DNA of 64,000 nt from Blakeslea trispora (taxonomy: Eukaryota > Mucoromycota > Mucoromycetes > Mucorales > Choanephoraceae), in contig JAIWNE010000001.1 of assembly GCA_025331445.1 (NCBI GenBank), positions 620,001 to 684,000 of the forward strand, given 5' to 3'. Shown here one piece after another: positions 33,260 to 41,351 of this stretch. The notes beneath the pieces were generated by a model. It had not been told where the DNA came from. It did not search any database and saw only the letters and a list, made by a program, of their open reading frames with translations. A program made the translations under genes and the position numbers. Position 1 is the stretch's first letter. Each line of letters starts with the position of its first letter.

Positions 33260-34525
33260 TTTCGTTCATATGCACACCTTTATGTACACCCTATAAATAT
33301 ACAAACCATATATACACTTTTTTTTTTTTTTTTGGTTATCCTCACTCCTTTTTTGTTTTGATTTTTTTTTTATTGATATGTAACAAAAAGGGGTAAAAGA
33401 TTTACTTCCCCCCTCTCCTCCTTCATAAATTGATTCTCCGGTCTTATGTGTGTAAAATAACCGTTTGATTCCCTGCCAAGTATTAAAAGCTATTTTTGTT
33501 TTGTTGCTTGACTACTAAAAGAAAGGCTGATGAGTTAAACAGTCATGCCTGTATGTTTTTAATAACAACTATGAAGAAAGTGCAAATAATCCCCAGATCT
33601 TTATGAATTTGTATATGTATTTAAGCATTGAATCAGATAACCTAAATAGCCATTTGCATCAGCAAAAAATTTAAGCTGCATAAAAAGGGCTCACTGATTT
33701 GGCGATTGAAATCCCGCACACTTAGCGAGAGGGCGGGGCTGCTGTGTCTGGGGGCTACTCCGCCGGTAATAAGCAATACGATTGGACACTGCTAGCCAAT
33801 AAAAGTTGTTATTACCGTCGCTCATTTAAGTTTTTGCTTAATGGTTTTTGAATGAGTGGGCTCAAACAGAATATTACTAAAAACTATAAAATTTTCTCTC
33901 TTCTACCAAAGAAATTCATCAAGAAAATTCCAGTGATTGCAAGCTTGTTGGACTACAAATAAGAAACGAAAGTGAGTAAGATAATCAAGCTAATGAAGTA
34001 AGCCTTGTCTCAGAAACGAAGCCAGTAACGCCCTGCAATCCTTACAAGAGCTGGATTTCGTTTAAGGAACATTATTAGAGGAGTCAATGAAAGATATGCT
34101 CTCGAGTAACATCGTTCTGTCTAAGCATTTTGAGGACCTTCTGACTTGCTTGACATAATGAAAAAAGTCCTTCTGAAAATGGAAAAGTGCCCCATTTATG
34201 GAATCAAGTTTGTGATTACAGAGTAATGTGATTATTTGGGTAAAAATCATCAGCAACATACATTTAAAAGGCTTCAATTTTTAAAATCTGAGATGTTTGT
34301 CTCACCCGAGAGTTACACAAAGAGAACAAAGAATATACAATCTATCATATAAAAGGCCAAAAAAAACTTGTTTCTGTTTTTCTCTTTGTCTCTATTACCT
34401 CATCTGTTAGATTCTTCTAATACATCTAATCTCTTATTGCTGGAAGTAGTAAGATATATTTTATTCTGACCTTGATATATCTGCCCCACTAATATGCTAT
34501 GAATAGATCTAATCCCTCTTAGGCA
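33260..34525. other. Spacer at the left of the accessory island
   Basis: Noncoding. Contains a GC-rich, hairpin-forming block (annotated separately) in otherwise AT-rich DNA. Possible left flank of the Fanzor-containing element; no inverted repeat matching the right flank could be found by eye. Confidence 0.5.
33685..33862. other. GC-rich block with nested inverted repeats
   Basis: A 60-base GC-rich core (33713-33770) stands out from the AT-rich spacer. Nested complementary pairs are visible: GGCGG at 33732-33736 with CCGCC at 33760-33764; CGGTAATAA at 33764-33772 with TTATTACCG at 33809-33817; ATTGG at 33781-33785 with CCAAT at 33796-33800. Outermost, GGGCTCACTGATT-like and AATGAGTGGGCTC sequences are roughly complementary. 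It could be a MITE, an element end or a structured RNA gene. Confidence 0.5.
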
Positions 34526-34909
34526 ATGTCCTACCGCAGGGCTCTACAAGATACATTCTATTTGGGCGGTCGTTATACTCCTGCGCCCCAGTTGTCTGTC
34601 AATGTGCAACAACAACCATCTACCATAGCTCCTGGCACGAGGCGTGCATTTGAAATGTCTGTAGAAGAATTCCATGACCTGTTTTATATCGTAGCTCAAG
34701 CCAAGCTACGAGATAACATTGTCCGTGAAAAAAACAAAAAGAAGCCAAACTACTCTGCTCTCAAAGCAAAAACTCTTGCTGGTCAAATTCCAAGAGGACT
34801 GTATGCTGATATGGATAAACATGCTAACCTCGGTTTGCGAGAATCTGCAAACAGATTTCAAAATGATAATTCAGTGTCTCGAGCAATTGATCTTTGGAGA
34901 AGATATGTA

Positions 34910-34941
34910 CAGTCAGAACGAAAAAAAAGGTTAATTTTTTT
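34910..34941. repeat. Left terminal inverted repeat of the Tc1/mariner element
   Basis: 32 bases, perfect reverse complement of 36213-36244, starting CAGTCAGAACG and containing an A8 run. Beyond it similarity decays, with a shared TCCG a few bases further in. Confidence 0.97.
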
Positions 34942-35112
34942 GAATTCCGACAAGGTCATCATGAGGGATGAGGACCATTTTACTTGTTGTTCAGTCAATA
35001 CTTCTTAGTTAACCGAGCTTTCTTTTTTCGGATCATACACTTTCAAATGTCTAATTAATAAAATTATAAAAGAATTGGGGCAAAAGATATGTTTTATTTT
35101 TGGATTGCTTGC

Positions 35113-36120
35113 CTAGGAGTCAATTGAGCCTCCTTTGGCAGCAATCACTTTTTTCATGCGTGATGGCATGCTTGAAACAGTTTTGTCGAAGTATTCGACA
35201 GTGATACTGTTCCAAGCATCCACCAGCATCTCCTCATTGGTTTTTTGGCCCTTAAGTCTGGACCAGTCTTGATGGAAGCGTCGCTTCATTTCACTCCAGA
35301 CGTTCTCAATGGGGTTGAGATCAGGCGATTGAGCAGGCCACTCTATTTTCTCAACCCCATTGAGATCCCTCAACTCCTTGGCAGCTTTGGCTGTGTGGAT
35401 GCTGGCGTTATCTTCCATCAAGACCGATCCGGGATTGCTCTGGAGAAAGCCCAGAAGAACAGGCTTGTAGACAAGGTCTACAAAGTCCTGGCTTGTTCTT
35501 CTGTCCTTTGGCAGGAACACCAACTCGGACTTGTTGCGACCACATATGGCCCCCCAAACCATAAAGCTGGTTCGGCCACTCTTGAAAGAAGGCTTCAGGC
35601 AGTCCTTGTCGTATTTTTCCTGTGGCAATCTCCAGACTTTTTTTTGCAAGATGTCCTTGCCGATTTCCACGCTGGATTCATCTGTCCAGACGACTTGCTT
35701 CCATTGCTCTATCGTCCAGTTTCGGTGAGCTTTGGCAAATTGAAGCCTCTTCTCCATATGGGCTTCCTTTAGAAAAGGCTTCTTTGCCGCAACTCTCTTG
35801 TTGTAACCCAGACCATGCAACTCCTTTGCGATGGTTTGGGTGTGCACCTTTACTGGCAGCTCTTGCTGCAAAGAAGCAAGCGTGACAGATCTGTCCTTTT
35901 GGATGGCTCTCTTCAGAACTCTCTTGCTACGTTCGTCAAGAGATTTGGGTCTTCCAGAGCCCGCAGCTCTTTCAACGGTACCTCTGGCTTGAAATCTCTT
36001 GATGGTCCTGTTAACAGTGACTGGGTTAATTCTAAGTTCTTGGGCAATTTCGATCTGTGGTTGGTTTCTTTGCCAACGATCAACGATGATAGCTTTGAGT
36101 TCAGTGGATAATTGAGACAT
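35113..36120 (-). CDS. Tc1/mariner transposase, DD34E
   Basis: 335 residues from the ATG at 36120 (MSQLSTELKAII); an open frame extends to an ATG at 36186, but the added 22 residues are hydrophobic and unlike the family. Paired-type helix-turn-helix at the N-terminus (IEIAQELRINPVTVNRTIKR), a GRPK motif, then the catalytic triad: Asp in VVWTDESS, Asp in LMEDNASIHTA and Glu in DLNPIENVWSEMK. There are 34 residues between the second Asp and the Glu, the Tc1 spacing. No stop or frameshift is seen. It cuts and pastes DNA at TA sites. Confidence 0.96.
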   Translation of the reverse strand: MSQLSTELKAIIVDRWQRNQPQIEIAQELRINPVTVNRTIKRFQARGTVERAAGSGRPKSLDERSKRVLKRAIQKDRSVTLASLQQELPVKVHTQTIAKELHGLGYNKRVAAKKPFLKEAHMEKRLQFAKAHRNWTIEQWKQVVWTDESSVEIGKDILQKKVWRLPQEKYDKDCLKPSFKSGRTSFMVWGAICGRNKSELVFLPKDRRTSQDFVDLVYKPVLLGFLQSNPGSVLMEDNASIHTAKAAKELRDLNGVEKIEWPAQSPDLNPIENVWSEMKRRFHQDWSRLKGQKTNEEMLVDAWNSITVEYFDKTVSSMPSRMKKVIAAKGGSIDS

Positions 36121-36212
36121 ATTGTGAGTTTCAAGGAATTTTATTAAGAAAGAGAGGTAGAATGATAGGAATGTAAGACGTGTCATACATTTACCCTTCT
36201 TTTACGGAGTCT

Positions 36213-36244
36213 AAAAAAATTAACCTTTTTTTTCGTTCTGACTG
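36213..36244. repeat. Right terminal inverted repeat of the Tc1/mariner element
   Basis: Perfect reverse complement of 34910-34941, ending CGTTCTGACTG next to the TA duplication. Confidence 0.97.
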
Positions 36245-39200
36245 TACAACAAAATTTTGATGTCGTCCAAGAGTCTGTAAGCAATCCTACTACTGAAGCA
36301 ACTAGCTCTACTCAAGCCATTGAACCTTCTTCAGAAGAGCTCCCTACCGAACCTGCTTCCTTTGTTGTTACCGAAGAATATTTTGAAGTCTGTACTGCGT
36401 ATTTTCCCTCGTTGATACGAGATGATCTTGCACCTGAAGTTAGACAACTCTTTGATACTAAGCTTGCTGAACTACTGCCTCAGACCTCCAACTTTATCAG
36501 TGACTTTCAAACAATCACGTTTATGATAATGTCCTGTTTCCGAAGCCATACTTTTGCTGTTCGCAATGGAAAATCAGTATTTGATAGATCAAATGGCTTT
36601 CAAATACAAAGCATCTTCCCAAGTAACTTTCAGCTACAAGATACCTTGATTTTTTCTGCCTCTCCATATGCTTCCAACTTTCTTGCCTCTCCTGATGCTA
36701 ATGACATTCCTTTTCTCTTCACTGACCGACATATTCATTTTTTGAAGTCTGGTTTTTATGGTGTTCGTGGCTTGCAAACAAAGACCAAAACAGATTATCC
36801 TTTGAGAACCCTGTTAATGGAAGCCATCTCTGACTCAGTCAACCAGTTCATCCAACCAAAAAACACTCTTCATATGGCCTGCTATGAGTCTGCATTGACT
36901 AACTATATTACCAATCTATCTGTCATGTGGGGTGATAACAAGATGATCAACATTCTCCTAGACAAGCTTTTGTTAGTGTTGCTACGTATTCATTTGGCTC
37001 CTACAAGAGAAAAAAAGCATCAAGAATATATCAAGTCTATGAAAAATGCCTCTAAAGAAAGAAAAGACGAAGCTGCAAAAGGAAGTAAGACAGAAGCAGG
37101 TCATCCTACCAACTGGTTTCCACTGCTCCATCAAAGCAGAAGAAGGTTAATAGTCCGCAAAGAACGTTACCGGCTTGCAAAATACAGACAAAAATCAAAA
37201 AGCTCATCATCTGCTTATATGAAGCAAAAATGGGAAGCTCGAGCCCAAAAAAGTGAGAAACGTATCGCAACATACACAAAAGCTCTGGAAACTAAGGTAT
37301 GTATGTCTACAATCAACGGGAAATCAGTCACTCATCTATGTCTATTATACCATTTTCAATAGGAGCCCAAAACTACTTCTGCCAAGAGAAAACAACCTTC
37401 TGAGCCTGATGTCGCCGAAGGTTCTGAGCGTCCAAGAAAGATCCCTGCTATCCAACATCCCTCTACTGCTTCTGCTGAGGCTGGTTCCAGTATGCTACAT
37501 ACTAGTCGCATGGAGTTAGATATTCCCACACAGCCGTACGAAGGAAAAGGGAAAGCGCCAATGAATCCCCAAAGCGATCCGAAACCTGTTACTTTCCAAC
37601 CACCCATGACAGGAGAGACACACACTATTCTGCCTGCTACACCAGAAGACTACGCAAGCATGGATGAAAATGATGTTGTCGAAGAAGAGGATGCTATAAA
37701 AGATGCTGATGATGATGCTCCTAGACACAGGTTGAATGGCTTAAAAGGCTTTATCAAGAGCTTGCTGTTGCGTGATGAAGATTTGCCTAACGAACAAGAC
37801 TTGACAGGTCTGCGCTCTGACTTGAATGAGAAGGAAGCAGAAGTGTGTTTGCTTATACTACGACGCTTAAAACCTTACATCCCTTCAAAGAAAAACTACT
37901 CTCATATTGGCTACCAGCTACCTTTTGTAATTCTTGCGAATGATTTGCTGCGCTGTGCTGGCTATGCTAAGTTCTGTCGTAAAATCTGCCCAATGCCTGT
38001 TGCATCTCAAAAGTCCTTTAGACTGGATACACCTTCGTTATTTAAGACATTCTGCGAGCATGGTGACAACAAAATGACATTTTTTGGCTATGACAACAGA
38101 GTCATTAGGGGCCCTTTGGAATACATCAATCATAAGGATGCTGTCTTCAATGCCTTTTTCAAGATTGATAGAATACAACAGTTGTGCAGACGTCGTAAAT
38201 TGGTTTTTGCTCATCATCTTCATTTGCTGCCTGGTGGAAAGTATGTCAGAATCCTTGGTATCAAAGAGAAAGCGCCCATGAAGCAGACTGCTGATGTAAC
38301 AGGCCAGAAGCGTCAATACAACATTCCTGAATCGACTTGGCAAGATATTCTCAATGAGCGTGAAAAAGACAATGAAACCTTGAAACAAGAAGTCGATGAA
38401 CTCTTGGGGAACACCAACCGTTTGTCAAAGCAGCTGAAAACCAGATTTAAAGAATTCAGCAATCAAGATTTTAGTTTGCAGATCAAAACCGCCAAGCAAG
38501 GCTGGAAAAACCCACTTAATCTTGAACCTGAAGTTGCTGTTGTGCAGGGTAGTGATTCTGAAGAAGAGGCAGGTGTATGTTGTCCTCAAATTGGTGAATG
38601 TATGACTGGTGTTCAGAGACAAATTGCAGACATTGTCAGAACTATACAAGCTCATATCCGACGTCCGCATGCCAATAATGATGAAGAGTTGATTACTGCT
38701 GCTAGAAATGAGATCAAGGTGTACATTGATGGGTTGAAGGCTGATAGAAGTAGGTTGTTTCTGGCTATTCAACAAGTCAAGTCTGAACTGGCAGACCAGC
38801 GATACCAGCTGTATATCCGCAGAAGAGCATTAAATTTGACAAAAAGAGATCAAAAAGCGCCCAGACAGACCAGAGAACTGCAGCAGATTACGGGCCAGCC
38901 TACGATTGCTAAAGCTGAAGATATGCAACTGATGGGTGACGCTGATACTATTGCTAAAAATTTTACCTTCTCTGGAACAGACAATGGTGTTGCCAAAATG
39001 ACTGAATCAGTGCCCGTTTCTATTCAAAGATACACTTACCATCTGAAGCTCTACAACAGGTTTTCTGCTTTGACTACTACTGAAGAACAAGAAGAAGAAT
39101 TTCAGCCTTTGCCGTCGTCCACTGTCATCAACGCTGAAGACATTGACTTTGGAAGCCAAAACTTGAACTACAGACACAAGCTTGCTGCTAAAAAGGCAAA

Positions 39201-39942
39201 TGATGTGAATTTGATTCAAGCTGAGAAGGTGTTGTCCGAAAAAAGTTTATCCAATGCAAGTTCCGTAGAAGCAATCCAGACAAACTATCATTTTTTGCAA
39301 GCCAATAGACAGACAGTCAGGAACTTTTATGATTCTCCACAAAGATCTAAACAGGCCATGAAGCAGGAATACTTTACCAAAAAAATCAAGGACCGCCTTT
39401 GCTCTCGCGAAAGGGAATTCACGAATCCTAAACCGAAAAAGAAAGATGTCAAGAAGAAAGGAAAAGAAATACAAAGAAAGAACCTGTTGATGATGATTGG
39501 TGATCGTGGCTTTGGGATAGGTTCCAGAATTAGAGGACATCTTAGATATGGTGGTATTTGGAAACAAGATCGGCATGCAAGGTATACGACTGTCTGTATA
39601 ACAAACGAAAACTATACTTCCCAGACCTGTGTGTATTGCTTCAACAAGCTCACTCATGCAAGATCCCGCATTATCAAACAAGACAAAATAACTTATAGAG
39701 AAATCAAAGGTACCTTTATCTGCTATAATTCCAAGTGCCCTTCTGCTCGTCACGGTCGTAACACAACCTCCAGAGATAAAGTGTCTGCCCTTGCTATTGC
39801 CATCTCCGGAATGACAACTTTGCTCTTCCAAGAAACTCTCCCTGTATTTTCAAGAACCATCAGTCACTCCAACACTGAACTGCACAACAAAACAGCATCC
39901 TTCTGTACAAGAAGCGGTGTATTGGCTGCACGCGAAGCGTGA

Positions 39943-41351
39943 TAAGCAAGGTTGTAAGTGTTACACAAACTCTAATTGCTTTAAATTGCTAAACCTTCTC
40001 TCTCCCCCCCAGACATGACAGCCTTGCCAGCGAGAGAAAAAGAAGCTTAAAAGTCTACTTTGATTACTTGTTTAAAAGAAAAAAGGAATGGACTCTGTTT
40101 CTTTCTTTCTTTGCACTTGAATGGTTTCCCCCCCCCCTCCTTTTTTTGTGTATTTTATTTTATTTTATTTGAAAAGAACATTGATCTTAAACAAAAGTTG
40201 ACATTTATCAACACGACAATTTTTAGTCTAATTTGGTACGCCCGAGTGTGGTTTCGGCATTAAAGTGAAAACAATGACACCGTTTCCCGGGAATAAATGA
40301 CACTTTGTTTACGTACCTTTCCTTCAGTTTTAACAGTTGCCATGCTGAAACCAACATGATTGATATTGTATGAATAGAGACAATGGTAAGAAAAAAAAAA
40401 GAGGGGGGATGAATAAGAAGGACTTGTGGAACTTAACCTATAGAGATATGTGATAAACAACCATGGTAAAATACATACCTTTCTTCCATGCAACCACTCT
40501 TCAAGTAACAAAAGGCTATTTGGTATGTTTATCTAACCAATCATCAACTAGAGGCAATAGCATAAAAAGTAGCTATACTACCTTATTGTTATTAGCTGGT
40601 ACATTAATTGCTTGCTTTTTTTTTTGCTTATACTAGTCTGAGTCTTGTTTTATATGTTAAACATCTTGGTTCTTTGTTTGACACTACAAAAAGACCAAAT
40701 CTCCATTCTTGTCATATAAAAAAAAAAGAAGATCATTTGCAGTAATCACTGTTCATTATTCTGCAGTGAGAAAGAAAAAGAGATAATAGGATGATTTATA
40801 GATGATGTTGTAACAATAAAAACATGCAAGTGAATCATGTCATACAAATAGCCATATATCCCTTTTTTATACTCTTAAAAACACAAACGCCACAATAAGT
40901 TCTACTTTTTCATAAAAGTGATCAACACCGAGCGCAACCACGTTCCTAACGCAAGAGTATTCAAAGCCCTTAATTATTAGTGTCACCTAACAAAGAATAA
41001 GAGCAGAACGCCTGTCTGGCATTTGGTTGATAAGTTCTCCGCATCTAAATGCCACTGCTCCGATATATACATAAAAAAAAAAGACTAATTAGGATGCCTT
41101 CTTCACCTTAGCACTTTAAAGGTGTAAGAGCATGTCAAAACTTAAGGGAACAAGTCCGGCTTTAAAGTCTTTTAATGTCAGAAGAAAGGGAAGGAAAAAG
41201 GCATGTCATAGATTCAACTAGAATTGTTTTAAAAAAGCGACACTTTCTTTTAACTCCCAAAAAGTCACACTACCAATTCGAAATAAAATGCATTCTTGTT
41301 TCTTTTTACTTTTTTTTTTCTTTTTATTTATTATTTAGTTTAATATATAAA
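39943..41351. other. Spacer right of the Fanzor-like gene
   Basis: Noncoding apart from weak hints. A GTAAGTG...CCCCCCAG splice-like pair lies at 39955-40012 just after the stop codon, inside the arms GCAAGGTTGT (39946-39955) and ACAGCCTTGC (40018-40027), which pair with one G-T. Near 40324-40490 on the minus strand, two tiny in-frame pieces (MEES and MATVKTEGK) with splice-like borders could be a leader of an unrecognised gene. A GGCATTT/AAATGCC pair lies near 41019-41053. Confidence 0.45.

Follow-up and report, generated by a model that had tools for sequence, protein, structure and literature searches.

A broken copy of a Blakeslea trispora transposon family with a giant protein that appears remotely related to Fanzor1 and a short oriented motif at its insertion sites

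Fanzor1 genes of the Mucorales lie in transposable elements: in Mucor, Rhizopus and Phycomyces, some of these elements have no transposase gene, those tied to MuDr make 9-bp target-site duplications, and two further Mucor families make 6-bp or 11–12-bp duplications and have no clear terminal inverted repeats (TIR) (PMC3627910; this and the other papers named by accession are cited from portions of their text). SpuFz1 belongs to elements with a single open reading frame (ORF), inverted repeats and gene-less "ghost" copies, between whose ends, in the portion consulted, no transposase is reported (PMC10432273). Most Fz1 proteins have 600–700 residues (PMC11423790). Here we describe a locus in a 64,000-nucleotide stretch of Blakeslea trispora (GCA_025331445.1, contig JAIWNE010000001.1, positions 620,001 to 684,000), the whole of which we call the window. 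It holds a broken copy of a ~5-kb TIR transposon family of this fungus. Like the SpuFz1 elements, the family has a single large gene, inverted repeats and gene-less copies; unlike the Mucorales elements above, it makes 8-bp duplications, and its encoded protein, at 1,337 residues, exceeds most Fz1. A short DNA signal apparently guides where the family inserts, and no oriented motif apart from the duplication is described in the portions seen of Bao and Jurka's work on Mucorales elements (PMC3627910).

The sequence-only reading had singled out 34526–39942 as a gene. The interval is too small, since similarity to other genomic copies stops further out at both ends, and in this copy it is not open throughout: it contains a Tc1/mariner element (34910–36244) and a 66-bp intron. 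The transposon is 6,297 bp long with the nested element and ~4.96 kb without it, and its limits are as follows.
33724..33731 (no strand): left 8-bp target-site duplication, AGCGAGAG, from comparison of copy and flank
33732..40028 (+): whole transposon copy
33732..33754 (+): left terminal inverted repeat
40006..40028 (-): right terminal inverted repeat
40029..40036 (no strand): right 8-bp target-site duplication, AGCGAGAG, from comparison of copy and flank

The terminal inverted repeats, recovered both by an inverted-repeat search of the window and by a search for ends in the genome, are 23 bp long and imperfect. With two mismatches or fewer tolerated, the genome has 81 occurrences of the left end and 56 of the right end, and none of the same sequences written backwards. 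The duplications of 27 elements with both flanks match at 8/8 positions in 18 cases, at 7/8 in three, at 6/8 in two and at five or fewer in four; this set includes L009 and L024, with mismatched duplications, and leaves out L013, L020, L025, L026 and L027. A common left flank is seen in L009 and L015, and a common right flank in L024 and L026. Either ectopic recombination between copies or assembly joins would account for these common flanks and for the mismatched duplications of L009 and L024.

Two types of full element were found, A (~4.96 kb, the type of the window) and B (~5.74 kb), with exon-2 proteins ~50% identical. Their first 369 bp (window 33732–34100) are 98% identical, whereas their last 556 bp are only 78% identical, a contrast that suggests an exchange of ends. 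The gene is laid out in the window copy as follows, from its ORFs and from copy comparison.
34526..34909 (+): exon 1, first part, with the ATG at 34526
34910..36244 (-): Tc1/mariner element inside exon 1, with TA on each side and a transposase ORF at 35113–36123
36247..37296 (+): exon 1, second part
37297..37362 (+): 66-bp GT-AG intron
37363..39942 (+): exon 2, 859 codons and stop, with a conserved region, a coiled-coil-like stretch (by eye), RuvC and zinc ribbon

Donor and acceptor of the intron are present in all nine A copies examined, and the public gene model of a Blakeslea protein (P0014) removes it by splicing. With its 478 codons, exon 1 is open in five of these nine copies; L010–L012 are frame-shifted in exon 1 and L009 is unreadable by the ATG anchor. 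Three copies (L014, L015 and L016) yield a spliced protein of 1,337 residues whose first RuvC Asp is residue 1018. The estimate of about 1,000 residues ahead of that Asp thus proves close, being 1,017 in sister copies with both exons open. No second ORF longer than 200 codons was found in the A and B elements read, apart from the nested Tc1 transposase of the window copy.

The gene appears to have been maintained. Searching the genome (37.2 Mb, 285 contigs) with exon 2 gave at least 60 matches, at least 12 of them full length at 97–100% identity, both counts being lower bounds from 53 scored among 197 candidates; nine of the 12 full-length matches are free of stops. The dN/dS of exon 2 is 0.23 among nine A copies, and the uncorrected ratio of exon 1 is 0.22 among five. 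We read this as purifying selection on both parts of the gene during the spread of the family, clearer in A than in B. Protein searches, each scoring the ~8,000 candidates with the most shared words, returned two overlapping sets of 15 and 18 homologous proteins; those with names come from Blakeslea, Choanephora, Mucor, Benjaminiella and Helicostylum, all of which we take to be Mucorales.

The nested element can be set apart from the family. Its transposase matches PF01498 (3.1e-18) and PF13358 (5.1e-17), its inverted repeats form a 44-bp pair, TA included, that is 93% complementary, and the remaining A copies used for comparison showed no such insertion. We therefore reject Tc1/mariner as the carrier of the Fanzor-like gene, as it is nested in that gene and missing from those copies. 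By eye, Tc1/mariner-like ORFs also lie beside or inside further family copies at L078 and L080, so nested insertion of this kind may recur.

The residues singled out from the window sequence are all present, namely the Asp at 38980, the Glu at 39607, the Thr-Ser at 39616, the Cys at 39628, 39637, 39721 and 39736, and the Arg-Asp pair with its Asp at 39775, and they fall into the following sites.
38980..38982 (+): RuvC-I Asp (SGTDNG), residue 1018 of 1337, placed by motif
39502..39504 (+): Asp of IGDRG, aligned by hhalign to GDGAF of the Fanzor1-type protein P0030
39607..39609 (+): Glu six residues ahead of the first Cys, putative Fanzor-type alternative RuvC-II Glu by the position rule of PMC10711439
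39628..39738 (+): zinc ribbon C-x2-C-x27-C-x4-C, from aligned Cys
39772..39777 (+): RuvC-III Arg-Asp, from motif and alignment

These sites follow the Bao and Jurka signature D-X(125,275)-[TS][TS]-XX-C4-X(5,50)-RD, with D540, TS752–753, C756–C792 and RD804–805 of exon 2. Shuffling the 859-residue ORF 20,000 times never produced the signature, which one of the 16 window ORFs of at least 250 amino acids has. Conservation was counted, gaps set aside, in a 24-row alignment of Mucorales homologues, several rows of which are close Blakeslea/Choanephora relatives, so that the counts are not independent. The RuvC-I Asp (D540) is kept in 15/16 sequences covering it, the Asp of IGDRG in 18/20, and the Glu (exon-2 E749, E1227 of the full protein) in 16/18; at RuvC-III the Arg is kept in 16/18 and the Asp (exon-2 D805, D1283 of the full protein) in 17/18. 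All sequences covering the four ribbon Cys have them (17/17, 15/15, 15/15 and 14/14). The pattern E-x6-CxxC occurs in the exon-2 protein only at residue 749, in agreement with the alternative-Glu rule of Fanzors (PMC10711439).

The same protein departs from canonical Fanzors in other respects. RuvC-I is DPG "near exclusively" in Fanzors (PMC10711439), whereas here DPG is absent and the Asp is followed by Asn in 15 of 16 sequences and by Tyr in one. The canonical regular expression, with 120–160 residues from D to E, a ribbon CxxC-x(12,18)-CxxC and an Asp 4–8 residues after it (PMC10711439), fails on a D–E distance of 208 residues, on the ribbon C-x2-C-x27-C-x4-C and on the 12 residues from the last Cys to the Asp. 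One of four Fanzor1-type comparison proteins (P0029) itself has DSG, and the ribbon of the Guillardia Fanzor1 can be read as C-x4-C too.

Against Pfam, NCBIfam and PDB sequences nothing significant was found, with PF07282 at E 0.05–0.18. The window protein has no significant Pfam family and reaches PF07282 only at E 0.18, below the cut-off; among seven family members, two match PF07282, the best at E 0.051, again sub-threshold. The same genome holds Fanzor1-type remnants, 6 of 17 places scoring above the PF07282 cut-off. PF07282-passing Fanzor1-type remnants, some with stops, were noticed at G000:C1:618090-618260, ~1.7 kb ahead of the window start, and at L069–L074. One such remnant led to four proteins with precomputed PF07282 (P0028–P0031; P0030 falls just under the cut-off when rerun), of which three have DPG, three VDEYLTSQIC and one IDEYLTSQIC. 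We call these four Fanzor1-type, a label assigned here from their motifs.

Three overlapping family alignments of 7, 12 and 24 sequences were compared by hhalign with the four Fanzor1-type sequences, giving probabilities of 78–90% and scores of 50–56 over 169–185 columns, against 25–26 for reversed profiles and 27, 33 and 31 for the best of 20 column shuffles per alignment. The match is colinear through an FY-rich helix, IGDRG/GDGAF, NENYTSQTC/VDEYLTSQIC and then the ribbon, and for the 7-sequence alignment it includes the Arg-Asp pair. This comparison and the conserved motif set support a remote homology between Fanzor1-type proteins and the C-terminal RuvC/zinc-ribbon part. SpuFz1, GtFz1 and the Mucorales PpFz1 have in common with it the RuvC Asp, the Glu six residues before the first Cys, the four-Cys ribbon and the Arg-Asp pair, and colinearity extends to Fanzor1-type Mucorales proteins; unlike them, our protein has DNG in place of DPG and a 27-residue ribbon loop with C-x4-C, lies below the Pfam threshold and has no detectable match ahead of RuvC. 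For the N-terminal ~1,000 residues we did not retain the reading as a Fanzor REC/WED lobe that has grown: a likeness around exon-2 residues 218–315 is suggestive by eye, but scores with the thin four-sequence profile lay below those of shuffles. Of the first proposal, "Fanzor-like" is right, and "Fanzor nuclease" is a hypothesis. Because DPG, ribbon spacing, D–E spacing and size depart from canonical Fanzors, we call the protein a probable member of a divergent clade related to Fanzor1, rather than classing it with the canonical Fanzors.

The left ends of the family are not all attached to a gene. For 29 of the 81, both a gene match (within 9 kb) and a right end (within 12 kb) were found; seven have a gene match only, 11 are short copies with both ends, one is of another kind, and 33 have neither gene nor right end. 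Nine of the short copies measure 722–758 bp and two ~465 bp. By blastn against element A, the ~750-bp copies retain ~430 bp at the 5′ end and, at the 3′ end, 250–325 bp that take in the final codons of the ORF. At one of the left ends, L077 (G000:C2:549312), the 23-bp repeat is exact and the target motif good, while relatedness to the family ends within ~100 bp; it is possibly a different element with the same ends. The regions concerned, together with the motif ahead of the element, lie in the window as follows.
33706..33717 (+): target motif TTGAAATCCCGC, family consensus TTNAAAYTCCGM, at -26 to -15 before the element and 6 bp before the duplication
33732..34163 (+): 5′ terminal region retained in the ~750-bp internally deleted copies
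39779..40028 (+): 3′ terminal region with the last ORF codons, retained in internally deleted copies; a candidate guide RNA would lie here
39946..39962 (+): 5′ arm of a terminal stem predicted by RNAalifold, with the other arm at about 40012–40027, inside the right inverted repeat

Left flanks were taken for 58 of the 81 left ends, and the 55 distinct ones were used in the motif counts. At -26 to -15 they read T T N A A A Y T C C G M, with C at -18 in 44/55, C at -17 in 45/55 and G at -16 in 46/55, and columns outside the motif stay near background. In leave-one-out scoring, 44 of the 55 sites reach at least 6 bits, a level seen at 0.11% of background positions; when 47 offsets are compared, the fixed one comes out best in 45 of the 55 flanks. 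By class, the motif is found in 10/10 A, 5/6 B, 8/11 short and 21/28 other copies; in L038 and L048, scored as misses, it is present and shifted by one base. No comparable motif was found in 30 right flanks. Since the motif stands in the left and not in the right flanks, insertion is oriented, with 6 bp from the end of the motif to the duplication (7 after CCG).

Two other accounts of the motif were rejected. As a B box of tRNA genes its spacing is off by one from the consensus, and ARAGORN found no tRNA genes in 22 loci; as a copy of a base-pairing template inside the element it fails, because internal matches are weak. Insertion at a fixed distance and in a fixed orientation from a recognised site is also the habit of CRISPR-associated transposons and Tn7, which are multi-gene bacterial systems, whereas here there is one fungal gene and a short degenerate motif.

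We hypothesize that the protein is an accessory RuvC nuclease, perhaps RNA-guided, in an element moved either by a transposase in trans or by an unrecognised N-terminal part, and we put the probability of this reading at roughly 0.55. The RuvC site (D1018, E1227 and D1283) would cut DNA, a guide RNA transcribed from the element's conserved 3′ end would direct the cutting, and the protein would cut again at sites that are empty or have been vacated, leading to the element being copied back. The strand transfer giving the 8-bp duplications would come from a transposase in trans or from an unrecognised part of the large N-terminal region. The 3′ end is conserved and is retained in the gene-less copies. 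At 39954–40012 of the window, GTAAGT soon after the stop is followed by TGCTAAAC, a pyrimidine tract and CAG just ahead of the right end, which looks like a 3′ terminal intron or a splice acceptor within the element.

Several observations weigh against an accessory, RNA-guided nuclease. Sequence searches with the family protein of Pfam, NCBIfam, PHROGs and PDB gave nothing significant; the RuvC-I segment lies outside the hhalign match, with its Asp placed by motif alone; and four upstream pieces compared with the thin four-sequence Fanzor profile, with the B protein represented by exon 2 and four exon-1 residues, score under the best shuffle. To the dependence among the aligned rows must be added the weaker constraint on exon 2 among seven copies of the second subfamily, B (dN/dS 0.47). 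Covariation supports only one of the 57 pairs of the predicted 3′ RNA structure, whose terminal stem can also be read as a subterminal DNA repeat. Lastly, a canonical target-adjacent motif (TAM) is expected to abut the guide, and in this family 6 bp separate the motif from the duplication.

The mobilizing enzyme itself was sought in the genome, which has at least 32 hAT, at least 148 MULE and at least 34 KDZ transposase matches, all lower bounds. None of the 148 MULE and 34 KDZ matches, and one of the 32 hAT matches, begins downstream of any of the 81 left ends at a distance of up to 9 kb, in a search confined to these three families, which a partner with other ends would escape. The lone hAT match is partial, covers 33 positions and lies 6.7 kb past a left end whose relatedness stops within ~100 bp. 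By eye, in ~3 kb each at four of the 33 left ends without gene or right end (L077–L080), only Tc1-like ORFs were seen as transposases.

Alternatively, the Fanzor-derived protein could be the transposase itself, its N-terminal part reading TTNAAAYTCCGM and its RuvC, or a hidden N-terminal nuclease, making staggered cuts 6 and 14 bp downstream and joining the ends. It would explain why, of the ORFs belonging to the A and B elements read, the gene alone exceeds 200 codons, why an oriented motif at one fixed distance is found in 44/55 flanks, and why A and B elements have that motif in common despite exon-2 proteins of only ~50% identity. The near-absence of MULE, KDZ and hAT matches by the left ends (0, 0 and one doubtful) and a selection on exon 1 similar to that on exon 2 point the same way. 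On the other side, the families searched were limited, their match counts are minimum figures, and the search would have passed over a partner with different ends; moreover, we know of no TnpB or Fanzor that transposes DNA alone. Bao and Jurka (2013) asked whether Fanzor could be a transposase and ruled this out for IS200/605 and IS607, which are moved by a separate TnpA (PMC3627910). On balance we hold a transposing Fanzor-derived protein to be rather unlikely. Its fullest form, a stand-alone, motif-directed transposase that recognises TTNAAAYTCCGM, cuts 6 and 14 bp downstream, inserts in one orientation and mobilizes gene-less copies in trans, would be unlikelier still. We accordingly rank the accessory RNA-guided nuclease first, and the self-sufficient motif-directed transposase second but live.

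We give little credence to a degenerate Fanzor that has lost RuvC activity and regulates by binding DNA or RNA, its element being moved by a transposase of the hAT or KDZ kind. Transposases of both kinds make 8-bp duplications and have matches in the genome, and DNG in place of DPG and the very low similarity to Fanzor would suit a dead nuclease. Such a nuclease, however, need not keep D, E, D and the four Cys nearly throughout. Unlike hAT and KDZ transposons, this element has no such transposase found inside it. Convergence of an unrelated zinc-ribbon protein, which the sub-threshold PF07282 matches would allow, is hardly credible against a colinear profile match above decoys and a motif set that none of the 20,000 shuffles reproduced.

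As far as titles, the starts of abstracts and passages of the open literature go, the Blakeslea family is undescribed; it may be listed in Bao and Jurka's additional Mucor files or in subscription papers. In IMG/VR, search patterns matched 28 and 6 stretches and gave no confirmed relative for A4 or A5. A RuvC/ribbon protein of twice the usual size that lies below the Pfam threshold implies that surveys based on PF07282 would overlook such proteins. The part that Fanzor proteins play in the elements encoding them is poorly known (PMC10711439). The family described here suits that question: its near-identical copies are many and under purifying selection, its ends are sharp and its duplications mostly exact, its short gene-less copies can serve as substrates, and its target rule can be read.

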